DNA of 64,000 bases from a bacterium. GTDB taxonomy: Bacteria; Armatimonadota; UBA5829. The notes beneath the pieces were generated by a model. The model was not told where the DNA came from. It saw only the letters and a list, made by a program, of their open reading frames with translations, and searched no databases. Shown piece by piece: positions 34,683 to 49,492 of this stretch. Location: contig JAJFVF010000002.1 of the NCBI GenBank assembly GCA_021371935.1, positions 310,001 to 374,000 on the forward strand. Reading direction: 5' to 3'. Position numbers and translations under genes: made by a program. Positions within the stretch are counted from its first letter, which is position 1. Every line of letters begins with the position of its first letter.

Positions 34683-35909
34683 TTAAAGTTGTCCTTGGTG
34701 CCGGAGATTGTCTCTGACTTCCTGTGCTTCGGCGCTGTCCGGCGCAATGGCGATGATTTTGTTCCAGACGCCTTCAGCTTTTGAGTGCTCGCCATGTTCA
34801 TTATACATATATCCGAGCGAGAGCAGTGCCGTTAAATCATTGGGGTCAAGTTCCAGGGTCTTTGAGTATTCGGCGAATGCAGGCTCGTCATCATCGTTCT
34901 CATCATAAGCGACGGCCAGGTTGCAGTGATATGAGGCGTTTTCCGGCTCAAGCTCGACTGCAGTCTTGAACTCACGCACTGCCTGCTCCAGTTCGCCATT
35001 TTCAAAGTATTTTAGGCCGCGCTTGTTGTAGTCTTCAGCAACCATCTGCGAAGCTGACTGCTGAGGCTCCGGCGCAGGTGGCTCAGCGGGCTTTGAACTC
35101 TGAGATTCCGAATTACGTAGTTCCTGAAGCCTGCGCTGAGCATTCATTGCGGATCGTGGATCGAGCCTGTCCGAACCGATAAGTCTGCCGCAGTTTGCGC
35201 AGTGTGTCCAGTCCGGTTGAATTGATGCTCCGCACGCTACGCATATCTTCTGCAGCATTGATCCACATTCGGGACAATATTGCATCCATCGCATTATTCT
35301 CGACCCGCACTTAGGACAGTGTGGGTTATATGCTATAAACTTTCGACCGCAGTGAGAGCAATACTGCGAGCCCACTGGGGATGAGGAAGTGCACTGCGAG
35401 CATATCTGTCTCAGCTGTTCACCGCATGAAACGCAAAAGATGGATTGTTCTTCGACCGCCACTCCACACTTGGGACACTTATTGCCTACTGCGCCGGATA
35501 TATCTGCTGCAGGAGTGGACTGTGGCATTTGAGTGGAGGATAAAGCCTTGTTAATATAATCCACTGCTCTCTGAAATATGCCGAGGTCATAAGATGGAAA
35601 ATAGACCCGCGCCTGCTCGGCGTCTGCGACAGGTGTGCGCAGTGTCAATTCAATATATCCGCTGGTGCCTGACGAGGCCACGGTTATGTCGGCGACATCG
35701 GGCAATGGATAACTGAACACTTTGCACTCGGCGTTAAGCCCGGAGTCGCAGTCTCTGACGACGAAGGCACGTTTGTCCGAGACGGCAAAAGCCTCACCAA
35801 AACTGCCTGGCAGTGATATGATAATGTTCTCACCAGCGACCAACTGTGCCTTAAGTGCGTCCTCAAGACCCATCGAAAGGCTCTTTTTCAGGTCAGCATT
35901 ATTGTCCAT
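34683..35909 (-). CDS. Zinc-ribbon and TPR-repeat protein
   Basis: A 408-residue cytoplasmic protein. Residues 1-110 form a beta-rich region, possibly PH-like (AEQARVYFPSYDLGIFQRAVDYI). Between about 140 and 250 there are ten CxxC pairs forming roughly five zinc ribbons (CPKCG...CVSCG, CSQC...CSHCG, CPKCG...CPECG, CVACG...CANCG). About residues 300-400 are three TPR units (YNKRGLKYFENGELEQAVREF, SYHCNLAVAYDENDDDEPAFAEY, LTALLSLGYMYNEHGEHSKAEGVW). It probably holds partner proteins together. It follows the histidine kinase gene after an AT-rich terminator-like hairpin. Confidence 0.8.
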   Translation of the reverse strand: MDNNADLKKSLSMGLEDALKAQLVAGENIIISLPGSFGEAFAVSDKRAFVVRDCDSGLNAECKVFSYPLPDVADITVASSGTSGYIELTLRTPVADAEQARVYFPSYDLGIFQRAVDYINKALSSTQMPQSTPAADISGAVGNKCPKCGVAVEEQSIFCVSCGEQLRQICSQCTSSSPVGSQYCSHCGRKFIAYNPHCPKCGSRIMRWMQYCPECGSMLQKICVACGASIQPDWTHCANCGRLIGSDRLDPRSAMNAQRRLQELRNSESQSSKPAEPPAPEPQQSASQMVAEDYNKRGLKYFENGELEQAVREFKTAVELEPENASYHCNLAVAYDENDDDEPAFAEYSKTLELDPNDLTALLSLGYMYNEHGEHSKAEGVWNKIIAIAPDSAEAQEVRDNLRHQGQL

Positions 35910-36003: not shown

Positions 36004-37803
36004 CTAGTTTGCTGCGGGGGCTTCTTTTTCCATATCTTTTGGACGCATTCCCGGCTGATCGCTTTTAGCCTCGCCGCCATTTTCCTTCATTTCTTCAACG
36101 AACTGCGGCGGACACAGCGGCACCTCGAAGATGAACTGTGAGCCTACTCCCACTTCGCTTTCGACCCATATCTTGCCTCCGTGGGCTTCAACAAAGTGTT
36201 TGACCAGATATAGCCCGATTCCCGTGCCGCCGACTTTGCGAGTGTCTCGGTTATCGACCCTGTGGAACCGGTCAAATACCTTGGGCAAGTGTTCCTTGGG
36301 AATACCCATACCCTGATCCTCGACGGACATACGGATCATACCGTCAAGTTTCCTGCCTTTGACTGTGACCGTGCCGCCGTTGGGTGAGTATTTAATAGCG
36401 TTATTGGTAAGGTTTGTCAATATCTGGACGAACTTGTCCTGGTCGGCAACGATGGTCGGCATATTGTCGTCGAGGTCCATCTCTATCTTATGCTTGGTGG
36501 TATATGACCTCTGGACAGCGACCACTCTTTCTACTGCTTCAGTCACATCCACCGGCACAGGATTGAGGTCCAAAGCACGTCCGGCCTCGATTCTGGAGAC
36601 ATTGAGCAGGTCGCTGATAAGTCTGGTCAGACGGTCGCATTCCTGGTCGATGATCGTATAGAATTCGTGTACCGTGTCTTTGTCATAGAAGCCTTCGGTA
36701 TCTTGCAGCAGGGTGGATATGAATCCCTTGATGGAGGTCAGTGGCGTGCGCAGTTCGTGAGAAACTGTCGATACGAACGCTGTTTTCATTCTCTCAATCG
36801 CGCGAATATCAGTTATATCATTGAAGATAGCGACTATTCCAATGTTGGTCTGGTCCTCGCTTTTCACCATAGCTGTTTGGACCTGATAAAAGCGCTCAGC
36901 GCCTTCTTCCTCAGATTTGAAATCGGGAAGTGATATTTCTTCCTGTACTTCGCTGGTTTCTTCAAAGGCTTTTGTTATTACATCGCGAACGATCTCATTT
37001 TCGATTGCACTCTTATAATCGCCCACCAGCTTTGCATCATCGTCAAGCCCGAGCATTTCTCTGGCCGATGGATTAACCTGCATCAGCCTGCCGCTGTTAT
37101 GTACCATGATGATACCGGCATATACGCTCTCGATTACATGCTCGAGTTCTTCTTTTTCCTTGACGACTTCTCGATACATCTGTGCGCTTGCGATGACCGA
37201 GGCTGCGTTGCGCGAGAGCCTGTCCAAGAGGTTCACATCTTCCTGGATGAAGACATTGCCATAGCGCTTATTGAAGACCCACATTGTGCCGATGATTTTA
37301 CGTTCCAGAACTTTATTTGTGTCTTCGTCACGCTTTTCAATTACCAGTGGCACGCAGACGCCGTTGGTTATTCCAAGCAGTGCAACGTTCTCTTTAACCG
37401 TACGCGGGTCGTTGACAGCATCGTAAAGGATTATCGGCTTCTGGTCTCTGAACACTTCACCCGAGACGCCGTCTGTGGCGGGGACTCTGAACATTTTTAT
37501 CTGTTCGTCGGTGATACCGACGCCCGGTTTTGCGGCTTGGAGTTCACCCGAGTCTTTGTCGAAAAGCTGGAAGACGCACTTTTCGGCCTGAAGTATCATG
37601 CTGATCCTGGTCACCAGCCGCTTAAGTGTCTCTTCCAGTTCTGTAAGGGGTGTCGGGCCGGATGCGCCAGCCTCGTTTTCCTTCAGACGTTCTTCCAGGC
37701 GCTTATTTGCCTGTTCCAATGCGCCAATGGCTACATCTTTTTCCTTTACTTGCCGTTCAAGCTCTTCTAATTGCGCTTGGTGGGATTTTGCATCGGCGTT
37801 CAA
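36004..37803 (-). CDS. Soluble sensor histidine kinase (GAF-PAS-HisKA-HATPase)
   Basis: A 599-residue kinase with no membrane segment. A coiled coil (residues 6-45) is followed by a GAF domain (about 55-210), a PAS domain (220-335), HisKA with phospho-acceptor H349 (FVSTVSHELRTPLTSIKGF), and an ATPase domain (about 455-575; N-box NLTNNAIKYSPNG, G1 DQGMGIP, G2 GGTGIGLYLVK). The tail is charged. Start is TTG with GAGGT eight bases before. Its own promoter lies at 37901-37929. It follows the sigma-GGDEF gene. No response regulator is nearby, so its partner is unknown. Confidence 0.92.
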   Translation of the reverse strand: MNADAKSHQAQLEELERQVKEKDVAIGALEQANKRLEERLKENEAGASGPTPLTELEETLKRLVTRISMILQAEKCVFQLFDKDSGELQAAKPGVGITDEQIKMFRVPATDGVSGEVFRDQKPIILYDAVNDPRTVKENVALLGITNGVCVPLVIEKRDEDTNKVLERKIIGTMWVFNKRYGNVFIQEDVNLLDRLSRNAASVIASAQMYREVVKEKEELEHVIESVYAGIIMVHNSGRLMQVNPSAREMLGLDDDAKLVGDYKSAIENEIVRDVITKAFEETSEVQEEISLPDFKSEEEGAERFYQVQTAMVKSEDQTNIGIVAIFNDITDIRAIERMKTAFVSTVSHELRTPLTSIKGFISTLLQDTEGFYDKDTVHEFYTIIDQECDRLTRLISDLLNVSRIEAGRALDLNPVPVDVTEAVERVVAVQRSYTTKHKIEMDLDDNMPTIVADQDKFVQILTNLTNNAIKYSPNGGTVTVKGRKLDGMIRMSVEDQGMGIPKEHLPKVFDRFHRVDNRDTRKVGGTGIGLYLVKHFVEAHGGKIWVESEVGVGSQFIFEVPLCPPQFVEEMKENGGEAKSDQPGMRPKDMEKEAPAAN

Positions 37804-37900
37804 ATCTATTACCTCGCTTCAGGGGCCTTCAAAGAAAATGGCGCGACATTACACTATGCCGCACCGCTGCGCTGAAAACAGGCCCATCGAACATAACGCG

Positions 37901-37931: not shown

Positions 37932-39275
37932 TTATGCCGCTTTCTTTAGTTGAGTTTTATCTTCACCGGTCAGTTGTCCCATGGTAAGCCCCATGTTTTC
38001 CAATGCTTTTTCGAGCATATCCTCGGCAGTAAATGCGTCAGCCGGATATCGTGCTATTCCCACGTTTGCCGCGCCGATTACCTTGGCGCCTTTTCGTCCC
38101 GACTCCATTCCGGTTGCTTCGACAATTGAGCAGATTCTGTCTGCAACATGCTGCGTATGGCTGGCCGTATGCGGGAGCAGAAATGCAAATGAAGTCTCAC
38201 CAAAGCGGGCGACAAGGTCCATCTTGCGCACTTGTCCGCGCATAGCCTGACCCAGATTGTAGAGGTAATCATCCAGGCGGACCATACGTACATACCTGTC
38301 CAAATCATCAGGCAGTTGAATATCAAGCAGCAGGATAGAGAGCTTATGATTTCCACGATAGGCTCGGCTTATCTCCTCGTCGAGCCTTTCCAGGAAATAC
38401 TGTCGATTGTAGAGTCCGGTGGTAGAGTCAATCACACTCATCGAATCGGCTATATTCTCACCAGGTTTGCGCTTGGATACATGTGTGCGCTGCATTTGTG
38501 CATCTCGAATTTCATCGGTAGCGAGTATCTTGCGCAGTTTCTTTGTGCCGTTGCGCAGAATGTGCGAGACATAGTTACAGCTTATATCCAGTTTTTTTGC
38601 GATCTCAGTCTGATTGAGCCCTTTATAGAAATGATCTGCGATCACTTGCTGTTCAATATCCTTGAGTCTGTCGAGTGCAGACTCAAGAACAATCTTGTCT
38701 TCCAAAGGAAGTTGGAATGTCTCCAACTTTTGGTCCGAAATCTTTTCTTCTTCTTTTGGACCCGAGCCTTCGTCTTTGTCTCCGTCAAGTGAGGTCACCT
38801 TAAACACTTCGCGCGTTGTCAGCATCTCACGCACCGTGCTTTCCGGCATCTGCATCATCTCTGCGATTTCTTTTTCAGTAGGCTGTCGATTATGTTGTTG
38901 GTTTAATGACTCGATCACCCGAGTCATTTTCTGATTGAGTTCCTGAAGCCATGCGGGTTCCTTGATTATCTTGCCCTTATCGCGCAGGTAGTGTTTTATC
39001 TGGCCGACGATGAAGTGGGTCGCATATGTAGAGAACTTGACACCCTTATCGCCGTCATATTTGTCGACGGATGTGATCAGTCCAACATAGCCTTCCTGGA
39101 TAAGGTCTTCCAGAGGCTCGCAGGCGCCCATAAATCTTCTGCCTATGCTTTCGACAAGATTGGCATATTGCAGGACGATCTCGTCCCGTATTTTAGAATC
39201 CGGACTCTGCGCATATTGGACCAGGCGATCCTGGATTTCATCTTCGGTTAACTTTCGACTGCTTCCCAACCGCAT
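37932..39275 (-). CDS. Sigma-70 family factor fused to degenerate GGDEF domain
   Basis: A 447-residue fusion. Residues 35-105 are sigma region 2 (EPLEDLIQEGYVGLITSVDKYD, FSTYATHFIVGQIKHYLRD), about 110-185 region 3, and 195-252 region 4 (DRLKDIEQQVIADHFYKGLNQTEIAKKL...YVSHILRNGTKKL). This is the SigB/SigF/SigG type without region 1. From 283 a GGDEF-type domain begins (DSTTGLYNRQYFLERLDEEI), with LLLDI at 316-320. The catalytic signature is RFGETSFAFLLP, with GETSF (359-363) in place of GGDEF, so cyclase activity is unlikely. The gene lies 77 bp after pilC. Inferred role: nucleotide-tuned transcription of pilus or surface genes. Confidence 0.9.
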   Translation of the reverse strand: MRLGSSRKLTEDEIQDRLVQYAQSPDSKIRDEIVLQYANLVESIGRRFMGACEPLEDLIQEGYVGLITSVDKYDGDKGVKFSTYATHFIVGQIKHYLRDKGKIIKEPAWLQELNQKMTRVIESLNQQHNRQPTEKEIAEMMQMPESTVREMLTTREVFKVTSLDGDKDEGSGPKEEEKISDQKLETFQLPLEDKIVLESALDRLKDIEQQVIADHFYKGLNQTEIAKKLDISCNYVSHILRNGTKKLRKILATDEIRDAQMQRTHVSKRKPGENIADSMSVIDSTTGLYNRQYFLERLDEEISRAYRGNHKLSILLLDIQLPDDLDRYVRMVRLDDYLYNLGQAMRGQVRKMDLVARFGETSFAFLLPHTASHTQHVADRICSIVEATGMESGRKGAKVIGAANVGIARYPADAFTAEDMLEKALENMGLTMGQLTGEDKTQLKKAA

Positions 39276-39352: not shown

Positions 39353-40567
39353 CTAACCAACCGAACTGATCAGTTTGAATATAGGAGCCATGATAGAGAT
39401 GGCGATAAAACCGACCAGACCACCCATCATAACGATCAGACAGGGTTCGATCATGGAGGTCAGGCCTTTGACGGCGTTATCAACCTCTTGATCGTAGAAA
39501 TCCGAGACCTTGGCAAGCATTTCTGAGAGTCGGCCCGTCTCTTCTCCGATATCGATCATATGCGTAACCATCTGCGGGAAGAGACCGCTTGTCGCCAAGG
39601 GAGTACTGATCTTCTGGCCTTCTCGAATGGCGTTTCTGGCATTTTCAATCGTGTGTGCAATCACACGATTGCCCGAAGTCTCTCCCACTATTTCCAGCGA
39701 ACGCATCATCGGAACGCCGCTGGCGATCAGTGTAGCGAATGTGCGCGAAAAGCGTGAAATTGCCATCTTCTGCACCAGTTCGCCGATTACGGGAAACTTC
39801 AGCTTCAGCATATCAATCTGCCATGCGCCGCTGTCGGTGTTTCGATACCATCGATAGGCAAAAGCTCCACCCACCACTAGTATCGGCAGCACATACCAGA
39901 ATTTGACCGCAATGTCGCTCAGTGCAAAGAGCATTTTAGTTGCGCCCGGCATCTCAACGTTCATGGAATCGAATATTTCCTTAAACTTGGGCAATACGAA
40001 CAGGAAGAGCGCGATTACCATTATCACGGCGAAACTCAAAACCAGGATCGGATATACCATGGCCGATTTGATCTTGCCTCGAATCTCCTGCTCACTCTCA
40101 AGAAATCCAGAGAGTCTTTCCAGAATCTTGTCGAGAATACCGCCTGTCTCCGCCGCCTTGACCATATTTACATATAGACGCGAAAACACATTCGGGTGCT
40201 TGCCGAATGCATCGGTAAGGCTCAAGCCTCCCTTGACGTCTTTTTTGCACTGTGCGATAACGGGCTTAAGGACGGGGTCTTTTGTCTGACCCTCCAGGAT
40301 ATCAAGGCAGCGTACTATGGCTATGCCAGCATCAATCATAGTAGCGAACTGCCTGCTGAATATAACCATATCATTGAGCTTGACTTTCCCTTTCGGGATC
40401 GTGGAACTCGACACGGCCTTTGCGTGAGACCGCTCCTCATTTAGTGAGAGTATATGGTATCTCTGTTCGTGGAGCTTTGACATCACCAACTGCTCACTCT
40501 CAGCATCCACCTTACCCTTCACAGTTTTGCCGTTCGGGTCCAGAGCCGTATAGACAAAGGTAGACAT
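39353..40567 (-). CDS. pilC: Type IV pilus inner-membrane platform protein PilC
   Basis: A 404-residue protein with two T2SSF domains (about 65-190 and 270-395). The first contains FSRQFATMIDAGIAIVRCLDILE and the second FSRTFATLIASGVPMMRSLEIV, and each is followed by membrane helices. PilC is the inner-membrane platform on which the PilB and PilT motors act. The N-terminal ARM region (MSTFVYTALDPNGKTVKGKVDA) is intact. GGGAGG precedes the start. It is 6 bp downstream of pilT. Confidence 0.95.
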   Translation of the reverse strand: MSTFVYTALDPNGKTVKGKVDAESEQLVMSKLHEQRYHILSLNEERSHAKAVSSSTIPKGKVKLNDMVIFSRQFATMIDAGIAIVRCLDILEGQTKDPVLKPVIAQCKKDVKGGLSLTDAFGKHPNVFSRLYVNMVKAAETGGILDKILERLSGFLESEQEIRGKIKSAMVYPILVLSFAVIMVIALFLFVLPKFKEIFDSMNVEMPGATKMLFALSDIAVKFWYVLPILVVGGAFAYRWYRNTDSGAWQIDMLKLKFPVIGELVQKMAISRFSRTFATLIASGVPMMRSLEIVGETSGNRVIAHTIENARNAIREGQKISTPLATSGLFPQMVTHMIDIGEETGRLSEMLAKVSDFYDQEVDNAVKGLTSMIEPCLIVMMGGLVGFIAISIMAPIFKLISSVG

Positions 40568-40573
40568 ATTTGT

Positions 40574-41701
40574 TTAACCTCCCTGGATCAATCTCTTTAG
40601 GTTTTCTCTATCGATAGCGCGTGCGAGCGCTTCTTCCTGGGATATGTAGCCCATCCGACTCATTTCGGCGAGCTGTTTATCCATAGTCTGCATACCGAAC
40701 TGAGCACCCGTTTCAAGAGCGCTGTAAATCTGATAAGTCTTGCCTTCGCGGATCAGGTTTCTGATAGCGCTTGTAGCGACCATAATCTCTATGGCAGCAC
40801 ATCTGCCTCCGCCATTTCGCGGCAGCAGTTGCTGTGCGACAACGGCTTCGATGGTGTTGGAAAGCTGCACCCTTATTTGGTCCTGCTGGTGCGGAGGAAA
40901 GACGTCTACGACACGGTCTATGGTCTGCGGCGCACACCTTGTGTGGAGTGTGCCGAAGACAAGGTGACCGGTCTCGGCCAATGTGAGTGCAGCAGCAATA
41001 GTCTCCAGGTCGCGCATCTCACCTATCAGGATCACATCAGGGTCCTCTCGCAGTACTGCTCTAAGGGCATTGCCGAATGCATCCGTATCCTGGCCTAGTT
41101 CACGCTGATTGACCATTCCCTTCTTATGTCGATGGAGGTATTCTATCGGGTCCTCCATTGTCATAATATGCACCGGGTCCTCACTGTTGATCGTGTCGAT
41201 CATGCATGCGATGGTGGTAGATTTGCCGCTTCCGGTCGGACCTGTGACCAAGATCAGCCCACTGTGTTTTTTGCTTAACTCTCTCAACACCGACGGCAGT
41301 CCGAGCTGTTCAAAGGTGGGGATCTGATCCGGGATAGCTCTCAAGGCTGCTCCTACGCTTCCACGCTGTCTGTATACATTGACGCGATATCTGCCAATTC
41401 CCTTGACACCATAAGAAAAGTCGAGCTCTTTGGTACGCTCAAATTTTTCTACCTGGTCATTGGTTAAAATGTCATAGATAACGCGCTGCGTATCGTTAGG
41501 TCCCAACGGTCGATAGTTGGTGCGCACAAGCGATCCGTCCACGCGAAGTATTGGCGGCAGACCAACCGTCAGGTGCAGGTCCGATGCCCCTCTTTCGGTA
41601 ACAGTGCGCAGCAGATCGTCCAAATGCATATCTTCGATTGACAAGACTTGCGAATCGTTAGAGATATCGACTGCTTCGTCAAATATTGTGTCCGGCTGCA
41701 T
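40574..41701 (-). CDS. pilT: Type IV pilus retraction ATPase PilT
   Basis: A 375-residue hexameric ATPase that powers pilus retraction. I take the ATG at 41701 (MQPDTIFDEA), which has GAGGAG 9 bases upstream. ATGs at 41707 and 41743 are possible. Motifs: DLHLTVGLPPILRVDG near residue 40, Walker A GPTGSGKST, Asp box (HIMTMEDPIEYLH), Walker B-like VILIGEMRD, and the His box GHLVFGTLHT. The PilT marker AIRNLIREGK is present. It is followed by pilC and preceded by pilB with a 14-bp gap. Confidence 0.94.
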   Translation of the reverse strand: MQPDTIFDEAVDISNDSQVLSIEDMHLDDLLRTVTERGASDLHLTVGLPPILRVDGSLVRTNYRPLGPNDTQRVIYDILTNDQVEKFERTKELDFSYGVKGIGRYRVNVYRQRGSVGAALRAIPDQIPTFEQLGLPSVLRELSKKHSGLILVTGPTGSGKSTTIACMIDTINSEDPVHIMTMEDPIEYLHRHKKGMVNQRELGQDTDAFGNALRAVLREDPDVILIGEMRDLETIAAALTLAETGHLVFGTLHTRCAPQTIDRVVDVFPPHQQDQIRVQLSNTIEAVVAQQLLPRNGGGRCAAIEIMVATSAIRNLIREGKTYQIYSALETGAQFGMQTMDKQLAEMSRMGYISQEEALARAIDRENLKRLIQGG

Positions 41702-41715
41702 ATTCATTCTCTCCT

Positions 41716-43446
41716 CTATCCTGCATAGATGACTCGCAGGCATTCTTCAAGTGTAGTTTGCCCCAAAAGAATTTTTGCGATAGCATCATCTCGCAGGCTC
41801 TTCATTCCTGTCTCGACCGCCGCTTCTCGGATCAGGTGTGCTGATGATTTCTGCAGCACCAGATCGCGTATGCGATCATTTACATGCATAAGTTCATAGA
41901 CTCCAAGTCTGCCTTTATATCCGTTTCCGCGGCAGTGATCGCATCCTTTGCCCCGATAGAAACTGACCCGCGCATCTCCATCTATGTCTATTCCAAGCCT
42001 TTTTATGGCGTCGCGCGGAGGTTGATACTGCTCTTTGCATTTCGGGCAGACCACACGCACCAACCTCTGTGCCAGCACTCCGATTACGCTCGAAGCAATC
42101 AAAAACGGCTCGATTCCCATGTCAACCAGTCGCGTAAGCGCTCCGGGTGCATCGTTTGTGTGCAGCGTTGAAAGCACCAGGTGGCCGGTCAGCGCTGCTT
42201 CTGTTGCTATTGTTGCCGTCTCTGCATCTCGAATCTCTCCGACCATAGCTATATCCGGGTCCTGCCTGAGCATTGTTCTCAGACCCGATGCAAAAGTCAG
42301 ACCCGCGCGCGTGTTTATTTGCACCTGGGTCAGCCCCGCCACTTCATATTCGACAGGGTCCTCGATAGTCAGAATATTCTTCTCGCCTGAGTTCAATTTT
42401 GATAGAACCGAATACAGTGTTGTTGACTTCCCGCTGCCGGTCGGTCCCGTAACGAGTATGATCCCGTATGTTCTTGAGATCAGACTCTCAAACCTTTCCA
42501 GTGTCTCCGGCAAAAGTCCGAGTTTGTGAAGTCCAATTGAGATCGAACTCTTGTCCAGAATTCTCAACACTATCTTTTCTCCGAATACCGAAGGCAGTGT
42601 CGAGACACGAAAATCGAACTGCCTGCCGTCGATAACTGCAGAGATTCTGCCGTCTTGTGGTGTCCGTTTGGTTGCTATATCCATCTCGGCCATAATTTTC
42701 AGCCTTGACGTAAGCGATGCTTGAATTTTCTTGGGCACCTGCATAACTTCATGCAGAATGCCGTCGATTCTAAGCCGGATACGCACGGCATCTTTTCCCG
42801 GCTCTATATGTATATCACTGGCTCCGTCACTGACTCCACGGCTGATGATAAGGTTGGCCAGTTTAATTACAGGCGCTTCTTCAGATAGTTCACGGAGCTG
42901 CTCTATGGAGATGTCTTCTTCGTCATCTCCATGGTCGCCGCCGGTGAAATCTATATCGGCGGAATCGAATTCTTTAATAACATCGCTTACCTGTTCCGAA
43001 GCGGTCGCGCCGGTCCGATATAGCCGCCCAATGGCGTTTATGATATCTTCTTCGGGTGCAATAGCGGGCTCAACATCTACACCCGTCATCATGCGTATTT
43101 CATCAATGGCGAAGATGTCCAGCGGGTTTTTCATCGCCAGGGTAAGCTTGCCGTTTTTTCTGGCTATGGGCAATACTTTGAGTTTACGTGCCGCGTTTTG
43201 CGCCACGAGCTTGATTATTGTTGAGTCAACCTCAAGCTCGGTGACGTCAACGAACGGCACTCCCCATTGCTCACCGAGTGCCCTTACCCGGTCTTTTTCC
43301 GAGATCAGTCCCATACTCACTAGAACGTCACCCAGTGAGTCCTGTCGCTTGAGGAGCTTTTGCTTTTCCAGCGCCTGGTCAAGCTGCTGCCTCGAGATGA
43401 TCCCTAATCTCAGAAACACCTCACCTATTGCTTCAGTCTTCTGCAT
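41716..43446 (-). CDS. pilB: Type IV pilus assembly ATPase PilB
   Basis: A 576-residue extension ATPase. The N-terminus carries two tandem MshEN-like motifs (AIGEVFLRLGIISRQQLDQAL, residues 6-26, and SLGDVLVSMGLISEKDRVRAL, 37-57). In relatives this domain binds c-di-GMP, but here the usual leading Arg is Ala or Ser. The ATPase core has Walker A GPTGSGKST, the Asp box, Walker B (DIAMVGEIRDAET), and a zinc site with two CxxC pairs (CPKCKEQ, CDHCRG). It drives pilus polymerisation with PilC. It is separated from pilQ by 285 bp. Confidence 0.95.
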   Translation of the reverse strand: MQKTEAIGEVFLRLGIISRQQLDQALEKQKLLKRQDSLGDVLVSMGLISEKDRVRALGEQWGVPFVDVTELEVDSTIIKLVAQNAARKLKVLPIARKNGKLTLAMKNPLDIFAIDEIRMMTGVDVEPAIAPEEDIINAIGRLYRTGATASEQVSDVIKEFDSADIDFTGGDHGDDEEDISIEQLRELSEEAPVIKLANLIISRGVSDGASDIHIEPGKDAVRIRLRIDGILHEVMQVPKKIQASLTSRLKIMAEMDIATKRTPQDGRISAVIDGRQFDFRVSTLPSVFGEKIVLRILDKSSISIGLHKLGLLPETLERFESLISRTYGIILVTGPTGSGKSTTLYSVLSKLNSGEKNILTIEDPVEYEVAGLTQVQINTRAGLTFASGLRTMLRQDPDIAMVGEIRDAETATIATEAALTGHLVLSTLHTNDAPGALTRLVDMGIEPFLIASSVIGVLAQRLVRVVCPKCKEQYQPPRDAIKRLGIDIDGDARVSFYRGKGCDHCRGNGYKGRLGVYELMHVNDRIRDLVLQKSSAHLIREAAVETGMKSLRDDAIAKILLGQTTLEECLRVIYAG

Positions 43447-43664
43447 ATACTTCTCTAAAGTTTATGAGCATTTCGCCCCGATTTTAAGTCAAAAAAATGA
43501 GAGCTGCGAAAGAGCCAGCATCTCCAAATTCAGTTATCGGCCAAAGAGCCGTTTTGTTAAGTGAAATACGGTCTTGAATTTGTATCAGAGAACTTGCTCT
43601 GAATATACGGTTTCCAGACCGAGACTTGCAATTTATTTAGCTTACGTAATTGAGTGTGTTCATC

Positions 43665-43696
43665 GCCGCCCCACCAGAAATATCCGGCGGGGCGGC
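43665..43696 (-). terminator. GC-rich hairpin between pilQ and pilB
   Basis: Arms GCCGCCCC (43665-43672) and GGGGCGGC (43689-43696), 36 bp after the pilQ stop. There is no T-tract. Two weaker nested hairpins lie in the same gap (CGGTCT 43569-43574 with AGACCG 43616-43621, and TCAGAG 43585-43590 with CTCTGA 43597-43602). The 285-bp gap holds no credible gene and may separate secretin from motor expression. Confidence 0.55.
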
Positions 43697-43731
43697 ACCA
43701 GGCGGAAGCTATGAGCGCTCGTCCTGGAATA

Positions 43732-46029
43732 TTAGTCATTGAAACTTGAGGCCGTGATGAACATGACCACTTCGTTCTTATCGTGGCTTGTTTCTTTATG
43801 CCTGAAGAGTTTTCCAAAGAATGGCAAGTCTCCCAGAAGAGGAATTTTGCTCATGCTTTCGACTTCGTCTTCTCTTATCAAGCCGCCGATCGCGATTGTC
43901 GAACCGTCTTTGACTCTCACGACATGATCTGTAAAACGCCTGTTTACGGTTGGCAGTGTCACACTGTCTTCCGTAGTAAGTGTGACCGTGCTGACTTCAG
44001 GATGAAGGTTGAGTGTAATGTATCCATCAGGGTTCACACTTCCTACCAGCCTGAGCTGCACACCTGCCTGCACAGTGCTTGTGTTATAAGTCTTTTCGCC
44101 GCTTGATGAAGAGCTGACCGAACTGACGTAGGTCACTTCGTCACCGACGAAGAACACACCGGGTTTCCCGTCAAGGCACAGCAGGTTTGGCGAAGCCAGC
44201 ACCGTTGCATCGCCGTTGGTAATAAGTGCATCAAGTGTCGCAGAGAAATTCGTCGCGTTTCTTGTCCAGGTATTTCTCGGGCTTTCCGTAAAGGATATTT
44301 CGTCCCAACTCCAGTCCAGGCCAAGCTGCTGCTCACCTGTTTTGCTGATGCTTGTGATTTTGGCTTCTATCTTGATCTGCGGCGACTTTATGTCAAGCTC
44401 CTTAGCCAGTTGCAGGGCTTTTTCCACATCCAACTCTCGTCCGGTTATGACAATTGCCAGCGGTCTGGTACGTGTTTCAATACTTACCAGTTTGGAACTT
44501 GTCCCAGCCTGGCTGCCCGTGACACCCATCAGACCGATCTGGTCACTTGCCTGCTGTGAAGCATTCTGCTCTTTCTGAATTTTGTTGGATTCGTCCTGAG
44601 TTACAGCCGAGCCGGAGTCATTCACCTTGATGGACTTGGGACCCGCCAAGTCAAAGCCTTCAGTGGGAGCAAAAGTAATGCCGATGCCAGGAATTAGAAC
44701 AGCGATTGCGCTGGCCAGTTCTTTTGCGTTTACATATTTGACCTTATAAATTGCCCTCTTGCTCTCAACTACTTGCACTTTCAGAGTATCTTCAAACTGC
44801 TCAATGAGACTCTTTGCTGCTTCGACTTCACTTTCAGTGCCGGTCAAAACAAGCAGATTGTTGCGTAGAGCTATGGAAGAGTCACCAGCGTTGTTCGATA
44901 GTCCTACCCTGGCAGTCCGTTCGACACCAATCTTACTTATCTGCAGATTGGGATATCTGTTTTTAACCAGGTCAATTACATCGTCGGCCATTGCGTAGCT
45001 GAGTTTGATGACCTCAGTCGTCGGATCTCCATTGTTTCCACTCGTCAGAGTCTTGAGGGAATCCTTTGAAGCGACAAGATAAGTGCCGCCTTCTTTTGTA
45101 TAGGCATAACCGCTGAGCTTTGCGACATAATCGAGTGCGGAATCTACGGTGACGTCAGACAGGCTCACCGTAACATTTCCGGTGACATCCTTGCTTGCCA
45201 CTATATTATGACCACTCTGCACAGACAACGCTTTGAGCACGTCGTTGATATCGGCTCCAAGGAAGTTGAGCGAGACTCTCTTTTCCGAAGCTGCCGCGAC
45301 TCTACCATTTCCACCAGAATCTGCGCGTGCGATTTTCTTCGGCTCGTCACTAAACCTGGGACGGAAATCTTTTGGTATGCTTGAAACGGGTATGGACACG
45401 GATACGCTCGGAGCCTCAGCGACTTCTGTCAGCCCCAAAACCTTCGCAACGGGTGCAGCGGGCCTGGCTGACGGGATAGGCATAGCCTTTGTGCATGCGC
45501 TGACAAGAGGAGCAGGCATATCTTTGCGCACCTGCGTTTTGGCTCTTGTCGTTGTTATGTTTGTAATTGAAGATACGGCTGAAGAAGCATCCGGAGTAAG
45601 CGGATAAGCTGCCTGGCTTTTCGCACTTGTTGCTTTGGGTATGCCGTTCTTCCATATTGTAATCTCAACTCGGCTCTTGTCACCAGCCCAAGAGGTCGAA
45701 TACTGCACATGGCTGCGTGTATTTGCGACCACACGTGTCCTGGGCGGATTGGCCGTAAAATTCGAATATCTGACATTATATATTCTGCCGGAGCGGATTC
45801 CAACAAGTCCGCCCTTTGCAATGAGTTTGCATGGGAACTGAAACCCCACGTATCTGCCGCTGGGTGAAACCAGTGGCGTCATTTTCAGAGCACTATTACC
45901 CTGAATACTGATGATTACGCGGTCTGTTTTGTTGACTACGTTTATTCCGGTTATCGCCTTATCGGCGAAAGCTGCGCTGGAGACCAAACATATAAGGACC
46001 AGCATGAAGGCGATGAATTTAGCTCGCAT
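43732..46029 (-). CDS. pilQ: Type IV pilus secretin PilQ
   Basis: A 765-residue outer-membrane secretin. A signal peptide (MRAKFIAFMLVLICLVSSAAFA) is followed by an AMIN-like region (about 25-130), a Ser/Ala/Pro linker, an STN-type N0 domain (about 245-320, VSLNFLGADINDVLKALSVQSG), further N domains, and the secretin core with VASPNLLCLDGKPGVFFVGDE and the C-terminal signature VKDGSTIAIGGLI followed by KIPLLGDLPFFGKLF. It forms the pore through which the pilus leaves. It overlaps pilP by 11 bp and has a perfect AGGAGG site. Confidence 0.95.
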   Translation of the reverse strand: MRAKFIAFMLVLICLVSSAAFADKAITGINVVNKTDRVIISIQGNSALKMTPLVSPSGRYVGFQFPCKLIAKGGLVGIRSGRIYNVRYSNFTANPPRTRVVANTRSHVQYSTSWAGDKSRVEITIWKNGIPKATSAKSQAAYPLTPDASSAVSSITNITTTRAKTQVRKDMPAPLVSACTKAMPIPSARPAAPVAKVLGLTEVAEAPSVSVSIPVSSIPKDFRPRFSDEPKKIARADSGGNGRVAAASEKRVSLNFLGADINDVLKALSVQSGHNIVASKDVTGNVTVSLSDVTVDSALDYVAKLSGYAYTKEGGTYLVASKDSLKTLTSGNNGDPTTEVIKLSYAMADDVIDLVKNRYPNLQISKIGVERTARVGLSNNAGDSSIALRNNLLVLTGTESEVEAAKSLIEQFEDTLKVQVVESKRAIYKVKYVNAKELASAIAVLIPGIGITFAPTEGFDLAGPKSIKVNDSGSAVTQDESNKIQKEQNASQQASDQIGLMGVTGSQAGTSSKLVSIETRTRPLAIVITGRELDVEKALQLAKELDIKSPQIKIEAKITSISKTGEQQLGLDWSWDEISFTESPRNTWTRNATNFSATLDALITNGDATVLASPNLLCLDGKPGVFFVGDEVTYVSSVSSSSSGEKTYNTSTVQAGVQLRLVGSVNPDGYITLNLHPEVSTVTLTTEDSVTLPTVNRRFTDHVVRVKDGSTIAIGGLIREDEVESMSKIPLLGDLPFFGKLFRHKETSHDKNEVVMFITASSFND

Positions 46030-46672
46030 TCTTGATTCCTCCTAATTTCACGTGAATACGACGACTTTTGTAGACCAGCGTTGCGCCGTCGTCGGAAACG
46101 GATTCAACTTTGTAGCGCCCATCAATGAGCTGGCCCTGCTTTACGATATAACGTCCACCTTCATCAGATCGGATAATGGCGACGTTGCGATCACCACGGA
46201 TAATGCCGGTGAGCGCAAATTCCGGCTCTTGTTCCTGAACTTGAATTTGTTCGGATTGAATTGTCCTAGTGGCTGATTGCCGGAAGGGATTGAACGGATT
46301 AGCTTCAATCTTCGGCACCCTTACTGAAGGGTAAGGTTTATCAACCCTCGTTGTCGATGGTCTGGTCGTCTCGACAGGCTTGTTCGTTTTAGCATTATCA
46401 ATTTCCAATGATGCAACCGGAGCGAACGGGTCTCTCCTTGGCGGAGTGACCATAAGGTCAGGGAAAGTCCCATTTGCAAGACTCGATACCTCTGTGTCAG
46501 TGCTTTCATCAGTCGCAGAACTATTCTCGGTCTGATGATCGGCTTTACACACTGGCGCAGGGGGCGGTTTCGTGCCGGGCGATATCACTTTGAATGAGAC
46601 GTAACCAATACAGATCAAGACAAGGACTCCCAGCACTATAAGCTGAGGGACTTGTTGCTTATCCAGCTTCAT
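46019..46672 (-). CDS. pilP: Pilus assembly lipoprotein-like PilP homologue
   Basis: A 217-residue protein starting at 46672 (MKLDKQQVPQLIVLGVLVLICIGYV). It has a membrane anchor (about 10-28), not a lipobox, then a Ser/Thr/Pro-rich stretch (RRDPFAPV and ANPFNPF) and a C-terminal beta domain (FALTGIIRGDRNVAIIR...VKQGQLIDGRYKVESV). PilP connects the inner-membrane PilN/PilO pair with the secretin PilQ. Identity rests on gene order and the beta domain more than on strong motifs. It overlaps pilO by 14 bp. Confidence 0.78.
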   Translation of the reverse strand: MKLDKQQVPQLIVLGVLVLICIGYVSFKVISPGTKPPPAPVCKADHQTENSSATDESTDTEVSSLANGTFPDLMVTPPRRDPFAPVASLEIDNAKTNKPVETTRPSTTRVDKPYPSVRVPKIEANPFNPFRQSATRTIQSEQIQVQEQEPEFALTGIIRGDRNVAIIRSDEGGRYIVKQGQLIDGRYKVESVSDDGATLVYKSRRIHVKLGGIKNAS

Positions 46673-47414
46673 TGCCGTCTCTCCCTTCACTGCTTGGATT
46701 CCTGCCGGTAATCGTGTCTGCCGGAAGATTCGGCGCGGCAACCGGAGCATCGTCTTTCAGAACATATGCTGTAATACTCATTCTTATGTTCAGTGACGGC
46801 GAACCGATAACTTGTTCACTACCTGCCGGACTCATCTGCACATTATTCACAGCAATGATCTTTGGAAAACTGGTGAGTTTATACAAGAAGTCGAGAGCAT
46901 TCATATACTTGCCCTCCACCTCAATGTCAATATTGAGTTCATCATAGGGAGCCGTCTTTGTTTTTACTGCTTGGCTGCCGGGCTGAGACCTTTGTTCGGA
47001 TGCTGCCTCGACATTTCCTGCGGCTGCCTGCGCGCCACTCGATAGTTTTCGCGGTCCAGTCTGTTCCTTTATGGCCTGTGGGCGAACACCAATCACATTG
47101 AGATTAACCGACTTGCCAAGGTATTCAAGCTGCTTGAGAAGGGTGGGAACGTAAGCCGAAGTTGTGACCGATGACTCCAAAAAGCGTATCTGGCTCCTTG
47201 CGTCCAGATAGTTGAGTTTCGATTCTTCCAGCTTTTGAGCAATTTCCTTGCTTTGAGCCACTTTTTCTTCTTTTGACTTCAGCTCTGCCGCCGTGCCTTT
47301 AAGTTTTCCCGCAACTGCGACATATGCCAGGGTGCAGCCGAAAAAGATCACCACCGCGATGATTATTAGCGCCGTAATCCCTTTTGAGCTGGGCTTAAGA
47401 TTTACTTGCGCCAT
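46659..47414 (-). CDS. pilO: Type IV pilus alignment protein PilO
   Basis: A 251-residue protein with one N-terminal membrane helix (about 13-33), a coiled coil (40-75, ELKSKEEKVAQSKEIAQKLEESK), and a C-terminal ferredoxin-like domain (YDELNIDIEVEGKYMNALDFLYKLTSFPKIIAVNNVQM) with an internal Ala/Gln-rich insert. PilO pairs with PilN to form the periplasmic alignment complex. It overlaps pilN by 20 bp, the tightest coupling in the locus. Confidence 0.88.
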   Translation of the reverse strand: MAQVNLKPSSKGITALIIIAVVIFFGCTLAYVAVAGKLKGTAAELKSKEEKVAQSKEIAQKLEESKLNYLDARSQIRFLESSVTTSAYVPTLLKQLEYLGKSVNLNVIGVRPQAIKEQTGPRKLSSGAQAAAGNVEAASEQRSQPGSQAVKTKTAPYDELNIDIEVEGKYMNALDFLYKLTSFPKIIAVNNVQMSPAGSEQVIGSPSLNIRMSITAYVLKDDAPVAAPNLPADTITGRNPSSEGRDGNEAG

Positions 47415-47997
47415 CGCTGCTTACTCCTTTCGACGTGTTGCCATTCATCATAGTCGCCCCGATCTCAAACTCAAAACCGCTCTGAGAGTTGCTTGCCATC
47501 TTCTTTGTAAAATGGAGGTCAACTTTATCAAAGTCGGGTATTGTCTGCAGTCGGAGTATTGTCTCGCCGACGCGTTCCTGCGTGTCTGAGATTCCCGTAA
47601 GACTGACCGTTGTCTGTACACTCTTGTCTGTGGACTGCGATGCTGAGATACGCGTCAGGTAAGTTGATGCTGCCAGGCTTTGCGTTAATTTATCGAGTGA
47701 GTTATACCAGCGCATTGTGCTGTCTTTAGCATCAGCGAGTAGGTCCATCTTGGGTGTCAGTTTTTTTGTTGCGCTTTCATATTGCTCAATTTCTTTGACC
47801 ACTGGCTGAAGTTTAGCAATCTGCGCATCCAGACGATTGATATTCAAGCGCATCGTATATGCCTTTGTGCATGCCCATCCGCCCAGAATGACGGCTATTA
47901 TCAGTTCCGCCAGAATCACAAGGACCAGTCTGCGCATGTCTCTTTCCAGACGCTGTTTTTCTGCGCGTCTGGGAGCTATCATATTTATGGAAGGCAT
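47395..47997 (-). CDS. pilN: Type IV pilus alignment protein PilN
   Basis: A 200-residue bitopic membrane protein. It begins with the short cytoplasmic peptide (MPSINMIAPRRAEKQRLER), in which SINMIAPRR replaces the usual INLLPWR that contacts PilM. One membrane helix (about 26-44), a coiled coil and a ferredoxin-like domain follow. It pairs with PilO and links the cytoplasmic PilM to the periplasmic parts of the machine. AGGAG precedes the start. Confidence 0.88.
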   Translation of the reverse strand: MPSINMIAPRRAEKQRLERDMRRLVLVILAELIIAVILGGWACTKAYTMRLNINRLDAQIAKLQPVVKEIEQYESATKKLTPKMDLLADAKDSTMRWYNSLDKLTQSLAASTYLTRISASQSTDKSVQTTVSLTGISDTQERVGETILRLQTIPDFDKVDLHFTKKMASNSQSGFEFEIGATMMNGNTSKGVSSDGASKS

Positions 47998-48056
47998 CAG
48001 GAACTCCTTTCCAATTTAGTATTTGAGATTTTTTATTAAGTATTTGGCTGCCGGCA

Positions 48057-49178
48057 TTAGGCCGCAGCATTCTTTGTTTCTGGAATCAGATCTTTCAGAG
48101 CAAGTCCAGTTCCCACTGCAAGAATCGGACCATGTTCTGTGACAAAAGACTCGGAAACACGGTTGGTACCGATAGCCGTCTGCTTGAATACCTCGGAAAT
48201 AACTGTGGGTATACTCAGCTTTGCCGACATATAAGCGTCCATGCCCGGCATTCGTGCCGTGCCCCCAGTCAGGACAATCTTGCTGACCATTGTATCGGCG
48301 CTGCCTTCGGGGAACTGTGACTGATAAAAATGGACTGATCGCCTGATTTCGCGAATCAGTTCGTCAAGAAGTGGCTGTACTACTTTCCAGTTCCGATTCT
48401 CATCGTCCATTGCGCTTATTTGATCCAGCGGGTAGTCTTTTGCCATCTCTATTTTCATGCGCTCCGCATCATCAAATGATGCGCCTGTAAGCGACTTGAT
48501 GGCATTGGTGAAGCTGTTGCCCGCTATTGGAATATTGCGGGTAAGGGCAAACTCGCCTTTGCTTACGATGTTGACATCAGTATGGCTTGCGCCCATGTCG
48601 ATCAGTGCAACTGTCTTGCGGAGGTATTCATCCGATGCGCTGAACTCGACGAGCGATCTGATGAGTGCGAAAGCCTCAATATCGACCATCAATGGTTCAA
48701 GCCCTGCGGATTCTAAAACTTTGACGCGTGAATCAACCATTTCACGCGGTGCTGCCACCAGCATTACATTCATCTCATTGGAGTCGGGCATATCTGAGAG
48801 TATTTCAAACTCGACAACGCTGTCTTCCATAGATGAGGATATATGCTTACCGGCCTCATATTTGATCGATTTCCGAAGGACAGCTTCCGGCATTTTCGGA
48901 AACTGCACTTGGCGCACTATCACTTGGGAACCGGAGATAGCGCTGATGGCTCCAGTGGCGCGTATGCCGGCATCTTTGAGCAGGCTGCGCACTTCCTGGG
49001 CAACATCCAAAATGTTGACGACTACGCCTTCTTTGACTGCATCAGGCGGTGTGGGTGTGACCGCCGCGTTAGCCAGTTCCCATCCGCGGGCGGTCGGCTC
49101 GATTTCCACTGCCTTGATACAGCTCGAACCGATGTCGATTCCGACAGTAGTCTCTTTTGAAAAGAGTGAGTTTAGCAC
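48057..49178 (-). CDS. pilM: Type IV pilus actin-like protein PilM
   Basis: A 373-residue cytoplasmic actin-fold protein. I start at a GTG at 49178 with GGAGG 11 bases upstream, because the longer frame to 49292 has no motif. ATP-binding blocks are TTVGIDIGSSCIKAVEIE, ALIDMGASHTDVNIV and KIVLTGGTARMPGMDAYM. PilM binds the PilN N-terminus and couples the motor to the periplasmic alignment proteins. It is the first gene of the pilus run pilM-N-O-P-Q-B-T-C. A 59-bp AT-rich gap separates it from pilN. Confidence 0.92.
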   Translation of the reverse strand: MLNSLFSKETTVGIDIGSSCIKAVEIEPTARGWELANAAVTPTPPDAVKEGVVVNILDVAQEVRSLLKDAGIRATGAISAISGSQVIVRQVQFPKMPEAVLRKSIKYEAGKHISSSMEDSVVEFEILSDMPDSNEMNVMLVAAPREMVDSRVKVLESAGLEPLMVDIEAFALIRSLVEFSASDEYLRKTVALIDMGASHTDVNIVSKGEFALTRNIPIAGNSFTNAIKSLTGASFDDAERMKIEMAKDYPLDQISAMDDENRNWKVVQPLLDELIREIRRSVHFYQSQFPEGSADTMVSKIVLTGGTARMPGMDAYMSAKLSIPTVISEVFKQTAIGTNRVSESFVTEHGPILAVGTGLALKDLIPETKNAAA

Positions 49179-49492
49179 TATTTGCTGCGACCTCCGATTT
49201 TCCTGTGCGTCTGTCTTTGTCAGACAAGACGACCTCCGGCGCACACACGTCGGCGTTTGTATTGGAAACGCTACGGGCACGCTTCCTAGCATGGATTATC
49301 GTCATTTTTGGGCTCAACATTAGATGTATATAAAAGAACAGGAAATCTTGCCGGGTCCTTGGTGTTAGGGGACGGGGGATAGGGGTTTGTAGAAGGATTC
49401 TGCGCCCCCTGTGTCGGAGTATGGACTTGGCGGTAGTGGCTTGGTTCTTCGCTTTCCACTCTCAGCCCTCAGCTATTTGTAAGGAGCAGGAA

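Follow-up and report, generated by a model that had tools for sequence, protein, structure and literature searches.

A candidate c-di-GMP-controlled sigma factor: a sigma–GGDEF fusion from a type IV pilus locus of Armatimonadota

The second messenger c-di-GMP usually acts on transcription by way of activators or repressors, or through an anti-sigma factor in Actinobacteria. A type IV pilus locus in an Armatimonadota genome raises the question of whether a sigma factor could instead carry its own receptor, as one gene there encodes sigma-70 regions 2, 3 and 4 followed in the same chain by a GGDEF domain that has lost its active-site signature. We examined this gene within a 64,000-nucleotide stretch of DNA, hereafter the window, and across its phylum. 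A preliminary description had reported this 447-residue layout, and its coordinates proved correct. Four Pfam matches, all scoring far beyond their thresholds, are listed below with the other features of the locus.

37932..39275, minus strand: sigma-GGDEF fusion gene, 447 aa, ATG at 39275, stop at 37932-37934, a single open frame without internal stop
38970..39176, minus strand: sigma-70 region 2, residues 34-102 (Pfam Sigma70_r2, E 9e-17)
38784..38942, minus strand: sigma-70 region 3, residues 112-164 (Pfam, E 8e-12)
38529..38678, minus strand: sigma-70 region 4, residues 200-249 (Pfam, E 1.6e-16)
38553..38582, minus strand: region 4.2 recognition helix SCNYVSHILR, residues 232-241 (column conservation, n = 73)
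38430..38525, minus strand: linker between sigma region 4 and GGDEF, residues 251-282, partly a continuous helix (AlphaFold helix 233-269)
37992..38435, minus strand: degenerate GGDEF domain, residues 281-428 (Pfam GGDEF, E 1.9e-21)
38364..38366, minus strand: R304, equivalent to PleD R313 and WspR R198, the secondary I-site arginine (aligned to the PDB PleD sequence; PMC2270323)
38217..38228, minus strand: I-site RxxD, R350-K-M-D353
38136..38138, minus strand: R380, equivalent to PleD R390, the third I-site residue
38187..38201, minus strand: degenerate active-site signature GETSF, residues 359-363
37935..37940, minus strand: C-terminal Ala446-Ala447, predicted ClpXP-type degron
39353..40567, minus strand: pilC, conserved upstream neighbor
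40574..49292, minus strand: pilT, pilB, pilQ, pilP, pilO, pilN and pilM (operon context)
43534..43560, minus strand (read 43560-43534): FliA/WhiG-type promoter TTAA-N15-GCCGATAA, 5' of pilB
37840..37865, minus strand: terminator-like hairpin 3' of the fusion gene (consensus scan only)
36004-37803: histidine kinase (GAF-PAS-HisKA-HATPase), 3' of the fusion

A genuine and ancient fusion

We found matches to the fusion in 201 of 291 Armatimonadota genomes (E <= 1e-40), and among the matches listed (down to about 1e-78) every alignment spans both domains. The 73 fusion proteins that we aligned fall into 27 families and share 34-93% identity with the window protein, with a mean column identity of 45% over the whole alignment and a linker of 17-42 residues. 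In a maximum-likelihood tree of 61 of these proteins, all 15 multi-member families were monophyletic, requiring 14 changes, the minimum possible. Since each family forms a single clade, we take the fusion to have been inherited vertically. The preliminary description had named a frameshift or assembly join, or a lack of conserved fusions in related genomes, as results that would overturn it; we found an uninterrupted reading frame and the same architecture throughout the phylum. That two genes were joined in error within one metagenome bin could be imagined of a draft genome in 22 contigs, and yet this explanation is refuted by the occurrence of the architecture across numerous further genera, in some cases in genomes assembled as a single contig (G218, G164, G135 and G154), and by the consistent linkers and species-like tree, so that we give it essentially no weight. 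The fusion is genuine and ancient. Beyond the phylum, our search covered plasmids and one narrow contig scan: no plasmid record covered 80% of the fusion query, and the scan, made with the single window protein, returned only genus-level relatives and one sigma-only match. Long N-terminal extensions annotated in two loci (L072 and L077) were discarded, as they derive from open reading frames overlapping pilT/pilC in other frames.

Linkage to pilus genes extends well beyond the window. In the window, the fusion begins 77 bp after pilC, with pilM-N-O-P-Q-B-T-C upstream on the same strand, confirming the gene order first described. Across the phylum, the gene immediately 5' of the fusion and in the same orientation is pilC in 41 of 60 loci, representing 18 of 27 families. 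These families fall on both sides of the tree's deepest split, and the linkage extends to families whose loci showed no other pilus genes. The pilC neighbor is absent in 9 of the 27 families. The fusion is divergent from pilT-pilC in family f10, follows pilQ in f35, and is surrounded by unrelated genes in f8, f12-f14, f16, f24 and f34. The history of the fusion is likely one of ancestral pilC linkage with later separations. PilT paralogues are universal in the phylum, and the co-occurrence of PilT with the fusion at the threshold used adds no contrast.

Two other points of the preliminary description gained no support from this comparison. The histidine kinase, noted there as the gene that follows, is not a conserved partner: we found it next to the fusion in the window and in one further locus, from the same genus (L042), and nowhere else, so that it lies outside the conserved unit, and it is separated from the fusion by a sigma70-like promoter (37929-37901) and the terminator-like hairpin. 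Only gene order points to pilus state as an input. Downstream of the kinase, the window encodes a protein with a double zinc ribbon and TPRs (34683-35909, minus strand) that is conserved within the genus.

The sigma half and the GGDEF half

We compared the sigma half with models of the known sigma classes. Regions 2, 3 and 4 occur in order with their core-binding and DNA-reading residues kept, as expected of a sigma-70 protein, and the presence of region 3 (E 8e-12) sets the fusion apart from the ECF class. Its best NCBIfam model is SigB/SigF/SigG TIGR02980 (E 4e-52); given that its score of 177.2 bits falls below the curated cut-off of 234.35 bits, we regard it as a divergent branch beside SigB/F/G. 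A stand-alone SigBFG paralogue from the same genome (L002) passes that model at 282 bits. The FliA_WhiG model gave 117.7 bits against a cut-off of 189.6, placing the fusion outside the WhiG/FliA type. Residues D57, Q60, T83, Y84, H95, L97, R98 and D99 are invariant, the core-binding pair D57 and Q60 being present in 73/73 proteins, and thus the sigma half looks functional. The recognition helix is similarly constrained (S232 in 73, N234 in 70, Y235 in 70, S237 in 72 and H238 in 66 of 73), and its sequence, SCNYVSHI, is unlike the corresponding helices of stand-alone sigmas in that genome, two of them WhiG-type and one the SigBFG paralogue. From these residues, we infer that the fusion reads a conserved −35 element of its own.

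The GGDEF half scores 76.9 bits against the Pfam cut-off of 23.8, a match strong enough that one might suspect an active diguanylate cyclase tethered to the sigma factor as a local source of c-di-GMP. The active-site residues refute this reading, which we dismiss almost entirely: 0/73 proteins have an intact GG[DE]EF signature, 0/73 combine the metal Asp with the acid at the signature's fourth position, and 0/73 have D327, N335 and E371 together, and the combination of guanine-binding Asn, metal Asp and GG(D/E)EF signature that marks an active enzyme is likewise found in none. The earlier judgment that catalysis is improbable, made from GETSF, can therefore be strengthened to exclusion on sequence grounds.

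What the domain has kept is its I-site. Residues R304, R350, D353 and R380 rank 4, 3, 1 and 6 of the 154 GGDEF columns in conservation and are present in 73, 73, 73 and 72 of the 73 proteins from 27 families, whereas the A-site columns rank 51-136. We found the reverse in a control set of 34 GGDEF domains from the same lineage with an intact signature, where the A-site was present in 34/34 and all four I-site residues in 8/34. Among cyclases more widely, 57% retain RxxD, with the secondary arginine present in 64% of that subset (PMC4215984). Our residue mapping onto PleD was the same whether drawn from the PDB PleD sequence or from structural alignment. D283, R297 and E301 are also near-invariant, with R297 and E301 lying on the R304 helix and differing from PleD.

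Structural alignments of the predicted GGDEF model gave Z scores of 19-20 against c-di-GMP-bound PleD, 20.3 against 4urg (rmsd 2.5 over 148 residues) and about 20 against the Thermotoga maritima GGDEF. The AlphaFold model of the whole fusion had a mean pLDDT of 81.7, with the GGDEF mostly above 90, and a pTM of 0.42; because of this low pTM, the position of the GGDEF relative to the sigma half is not fixed, and masking of core contacts is not seen in the model.

By its sequence, the GGDEF half would belong with PelD and PopA, receptors in which the GGDEF fold and RxxD are kept and the A-site is lost. The preliminary description had suggested that the domain might bind c-di-GMP or GTP and gate the sigma part. 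GTP binding is not supported, since the residues that hold GTP in the A-site are gone, while c-di-GMP binding is predicted from the complete I-site, and because that site is kept, gating of the sigma in cis by c-di-GMP is the best reading of the fusion. The I-site could hold another dinucleotide instead.

It is also possible to read the domain as a pure protein-protein module that binds no nucleotide and docks to a partner cyclase, for example, or to PilB or PilC, its arginines being kept for the interface. Degenerate GGDEFs can be scaffolds, and the ancestral pilC linkage would fit such a role. However, the invariant set is exactly the set of c-di-GMP contacts, D353 among them, against a background of drift elsewhere in the domain, and one would not expect a docking surface to match those contacts; we therefore consider this reading improbable.

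The preliminary description had mentioned neither the intact I-site, the trans arginine R304 nor the distinct −35 recognition helix, and it had also passed over the C-terminus of the protein, which ends in Ala-Ala. This ending is found in 52/73 fusion proteins and 16/27 families versus 7 of 559 neighboring genes of the same loci (1.3%), and it sits at the tip of a tail that is variable in its other residues and in length. It is absent from one clade (families f8, f11, f16, f26, f27, f34-38 and f44). Such C-terminal ends are ClpXP signals in SsrA and CtrA, and clpX is present in the window genome. A C-terminal Ala-Gly degron is known from TacA and ShkA (PMC7010744). The Ala-Ala of the fusion resembles a ClpXP degron, and it may act as one.

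Promoters and c-di-GMP in the surrounding genomes

A −10 motif, GCCGAYAAT, occurs upstream of pilB (f1, f2), pilC (f11, f20) and the fusion itself (f24), with 9 exact sense matches and 1 antisense match in 60 loci against a shuffle mean of 0.2. Its positions include 43534-43560 (minus strand) in the window, L062 at 7957 and L063 at 9016, as well as L078, L090, L074, L096 and L101, and TAAA often lies about 15 bp upstream. We considered whether this could be the promoter that the fusion recognizes and rejected it. The motif is the WhiG consensus used in Rubrobacter, whose type IV pili are under the control of WhiG, c-di-GMP and RsiG (PMC8325347). The window genome has two WhiG-type sigmas, a relative of one of which is found in 233/291 genomes of the phylum. 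Given that WhiG sigmas are present, that the consensus matches and that the recognition helix of the fusion differs, WhiG is the likelier reader. The promoter upstream of pilB is thus probably read by a separate WhiG sigma and not by the fusion. The fusion, probably transcribed together with the pilus genes, would belong to a WhiG cascade and act at a later step. WhiG/FliA-type promoters at pilB, pilC or the fusion in distant families form a parallel to Rubrobacter.

Our searches upstream of pilus-locus and pilin genes did not reveal the fusion's own promoter motif or targets, and the regions upstream of 27 pilin-like genes yielded only sigma70-like TTGACA. No c-di-GMP riboswitch was found by Rfam in 20 pilin loci. 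Several of the 31 pilin-like genes in the window genome (L172, L175, L177, L178 and L188) share a leader element near GCACTGCGGGYGGGCAAA, with no Rfam match in the loci scanned.

Synthesis of c-di-GMP is possible in the window genome, as it has several other GGDEFs with an intact signature. One promoter-like element, TAAA-N15-GCCGATAA at G000:C13:206778-206804 (L157), lies about 0.8 kb before a GGDEF match (C13:207589, L105), and WhiG may also drive the cyclase gene there, as in Rubrobacter. A weakly scoring GGDEF protein of 477 aa at G000:C8:86181-86624 (L109; 74 bits) has an intact signature and no I-site in the alignment, and related genomes contain GGDEF matches that likewise score low and are partial in span. 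The window also contains a c-di-AMP riboswitch (ydaO/yuaA leader, RF00379; 5241-5368, plus strand; 73 bits versus a gathering score of 38), suggesting that its genome probably uses a second cyclic dinucleotide.

Four genomes of family f1 lack the fusion (G237-G240), and they have no WhiG relative either (E <= 1e-30). Two of them, G237 and G238 (same family, genera g5/g6), contain no GGDEF domain at all and seem to have lost their c-di-GMP network entirely. For a c-di-GMP-dependent role of the fusion, these two genomes count in favor, and G239, which has six GGDEF domains, counts against.

A predicted mechanism and its known relatives

We propose, with a probability of roughly 0.74, that the fusion is an alternative sigma factor of the SigB/F/G type and that c-di-GMP controls it as a one-component system. 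In this mechanism, c-di-GMP would bind the I-site and alter sigma activity, and binding would plausibly dimerize the fusion through R304. In WspR (R198) and a Thermotoga cyclase (R115), the secondary arginine comes from the second GGDEF of a c-di-GMP-bridged dimer (PMC2270323, PMC4215984), and since R304 is invariant and its counterparts are supplied in trans, such a dimer is predicted here. At high c-di-GMP, an intercalated c-di-GMP dimer would link two sigma molecules through their GGDEFs in the manner of PleD and WspR, and the bridged dimer might keep the sigma part off core RNA polymerase. As c-di-GMP falls, the dimer would open and the sigma would drive a surface- or pilus-related regulon via its own −35 element. 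In lineages with Ala-Ala, ClpXP might remove the fusion, perhaps only when it is bridged or only when it is open.

The sign of this response could also be the opposite. If c-di-GMP activates, then the apo GGDEF or linker would mask region 4 or 2 of the monomeric sigma, and I-site binding, with or without dimerization, would free the sigma. The same I-site conservation would be expected, R297 and E301 on the R304 helix could be an intramolecular contact, and a CorE-type sigma extension responds positively to its ligand (PMC8999054). However, R304 works in trans in known structures, making a dimer more natural, and WhiG-RsiG, the closest system by function, inhibits with c-di-GMP. We therefore regard activation as the strongest competing account but an unlikely one. 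Between the two signs, analogy with WhiG-RsiG and ECF41 leads us to lean modestly toward c-di-GMP turning the sigma off rather than on.

A broader reading, which we offer tentatively and would not ourselves bet on, is that sigma factors doubling as second-messenger receptors form a class of their own, ancestral to the phylum and present across it. They would be tied to type IV pili, work as pairs bridged by c-di-GMP through their dead GGDEF domains and hand one state to ClpXP through Ala-Ala, so that one polypeptide would do what elsewhere takes a protease adaptor, a sigma factor and its anti-sigma.

If the proposed mechanism is true, then the c-di-GMP pocket is part of the sigma itself, and the path from second messenger to promoter choice could not be shorter. 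The link between c-di-GMP, an alternative sigma and type IV pili would have arisen twice with unrelated receptors, in WhiG-RsiG of Rubrobacter and in the Armatimonadota fusion. The fusion offers a handle on gene control in Armatimonadota, a phylum in which the sequenced genome of Fimbriimonas ginsengisoli encodes few transcription regulators relative to its size (PMC4072686), and it would be a compact natural part for c-di-GMP-responsive transcription. A full-text search of free-licence papers returned no published description of a sigma-GGDEF fusion, nor did the passages of a 2025 review of c-di-GMP effectors that a term search retrieved.

Four known systems come closest to the proposed design. 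In the WhiG-(c-di-GMP)2-RsiG complex of Streptomyces and Rubrobacter (PMC8325347), c-di-GMP likewise sets the activity of an alternative sigma, with a link to pili in Rubrobacter, although the receptor in those bacteria is a helical anti-sigma, a protein apart from WhiG that has its own binding motif, whereas here it would be a dead GGDEF in the same chain, attached to a sigma closer to SigB/F/G than to WhiG (TIGR02980 177 versus FliA_WhiG 118 bits). PelD and PopA bind c-di-GMP at the I-site of a dead GGDEF (PMC7112168, PMC12564702). They have also lost the signature and kept RxxD, as in the receptor predicted here, but their output is an exopolysaccharide or protease-adaptor module rather than a sigma factor. 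ECF41 and other extended ECF sigmas (PMC3426412, PMC8999054) share a C-terminal fused regulatory domain and the lack of an adjoining anti-sigma gene, although they consist of regions 2 and 4 only, with SnoaL, TPR or Cys-rich extensions, where the fusion has regions 2-3-4 and a GGDEF fold. Finally, the Caulobacter PopA/ClpXP cascade and the Ala-Gly ends of TacA and ShkA (PMC7010744) pair a c-di-GMP I-site receptor with a C-terminal small-residue degron in separate proteins of one pathway, while the fusion unites both features in one chain, with its degradation a prediction.
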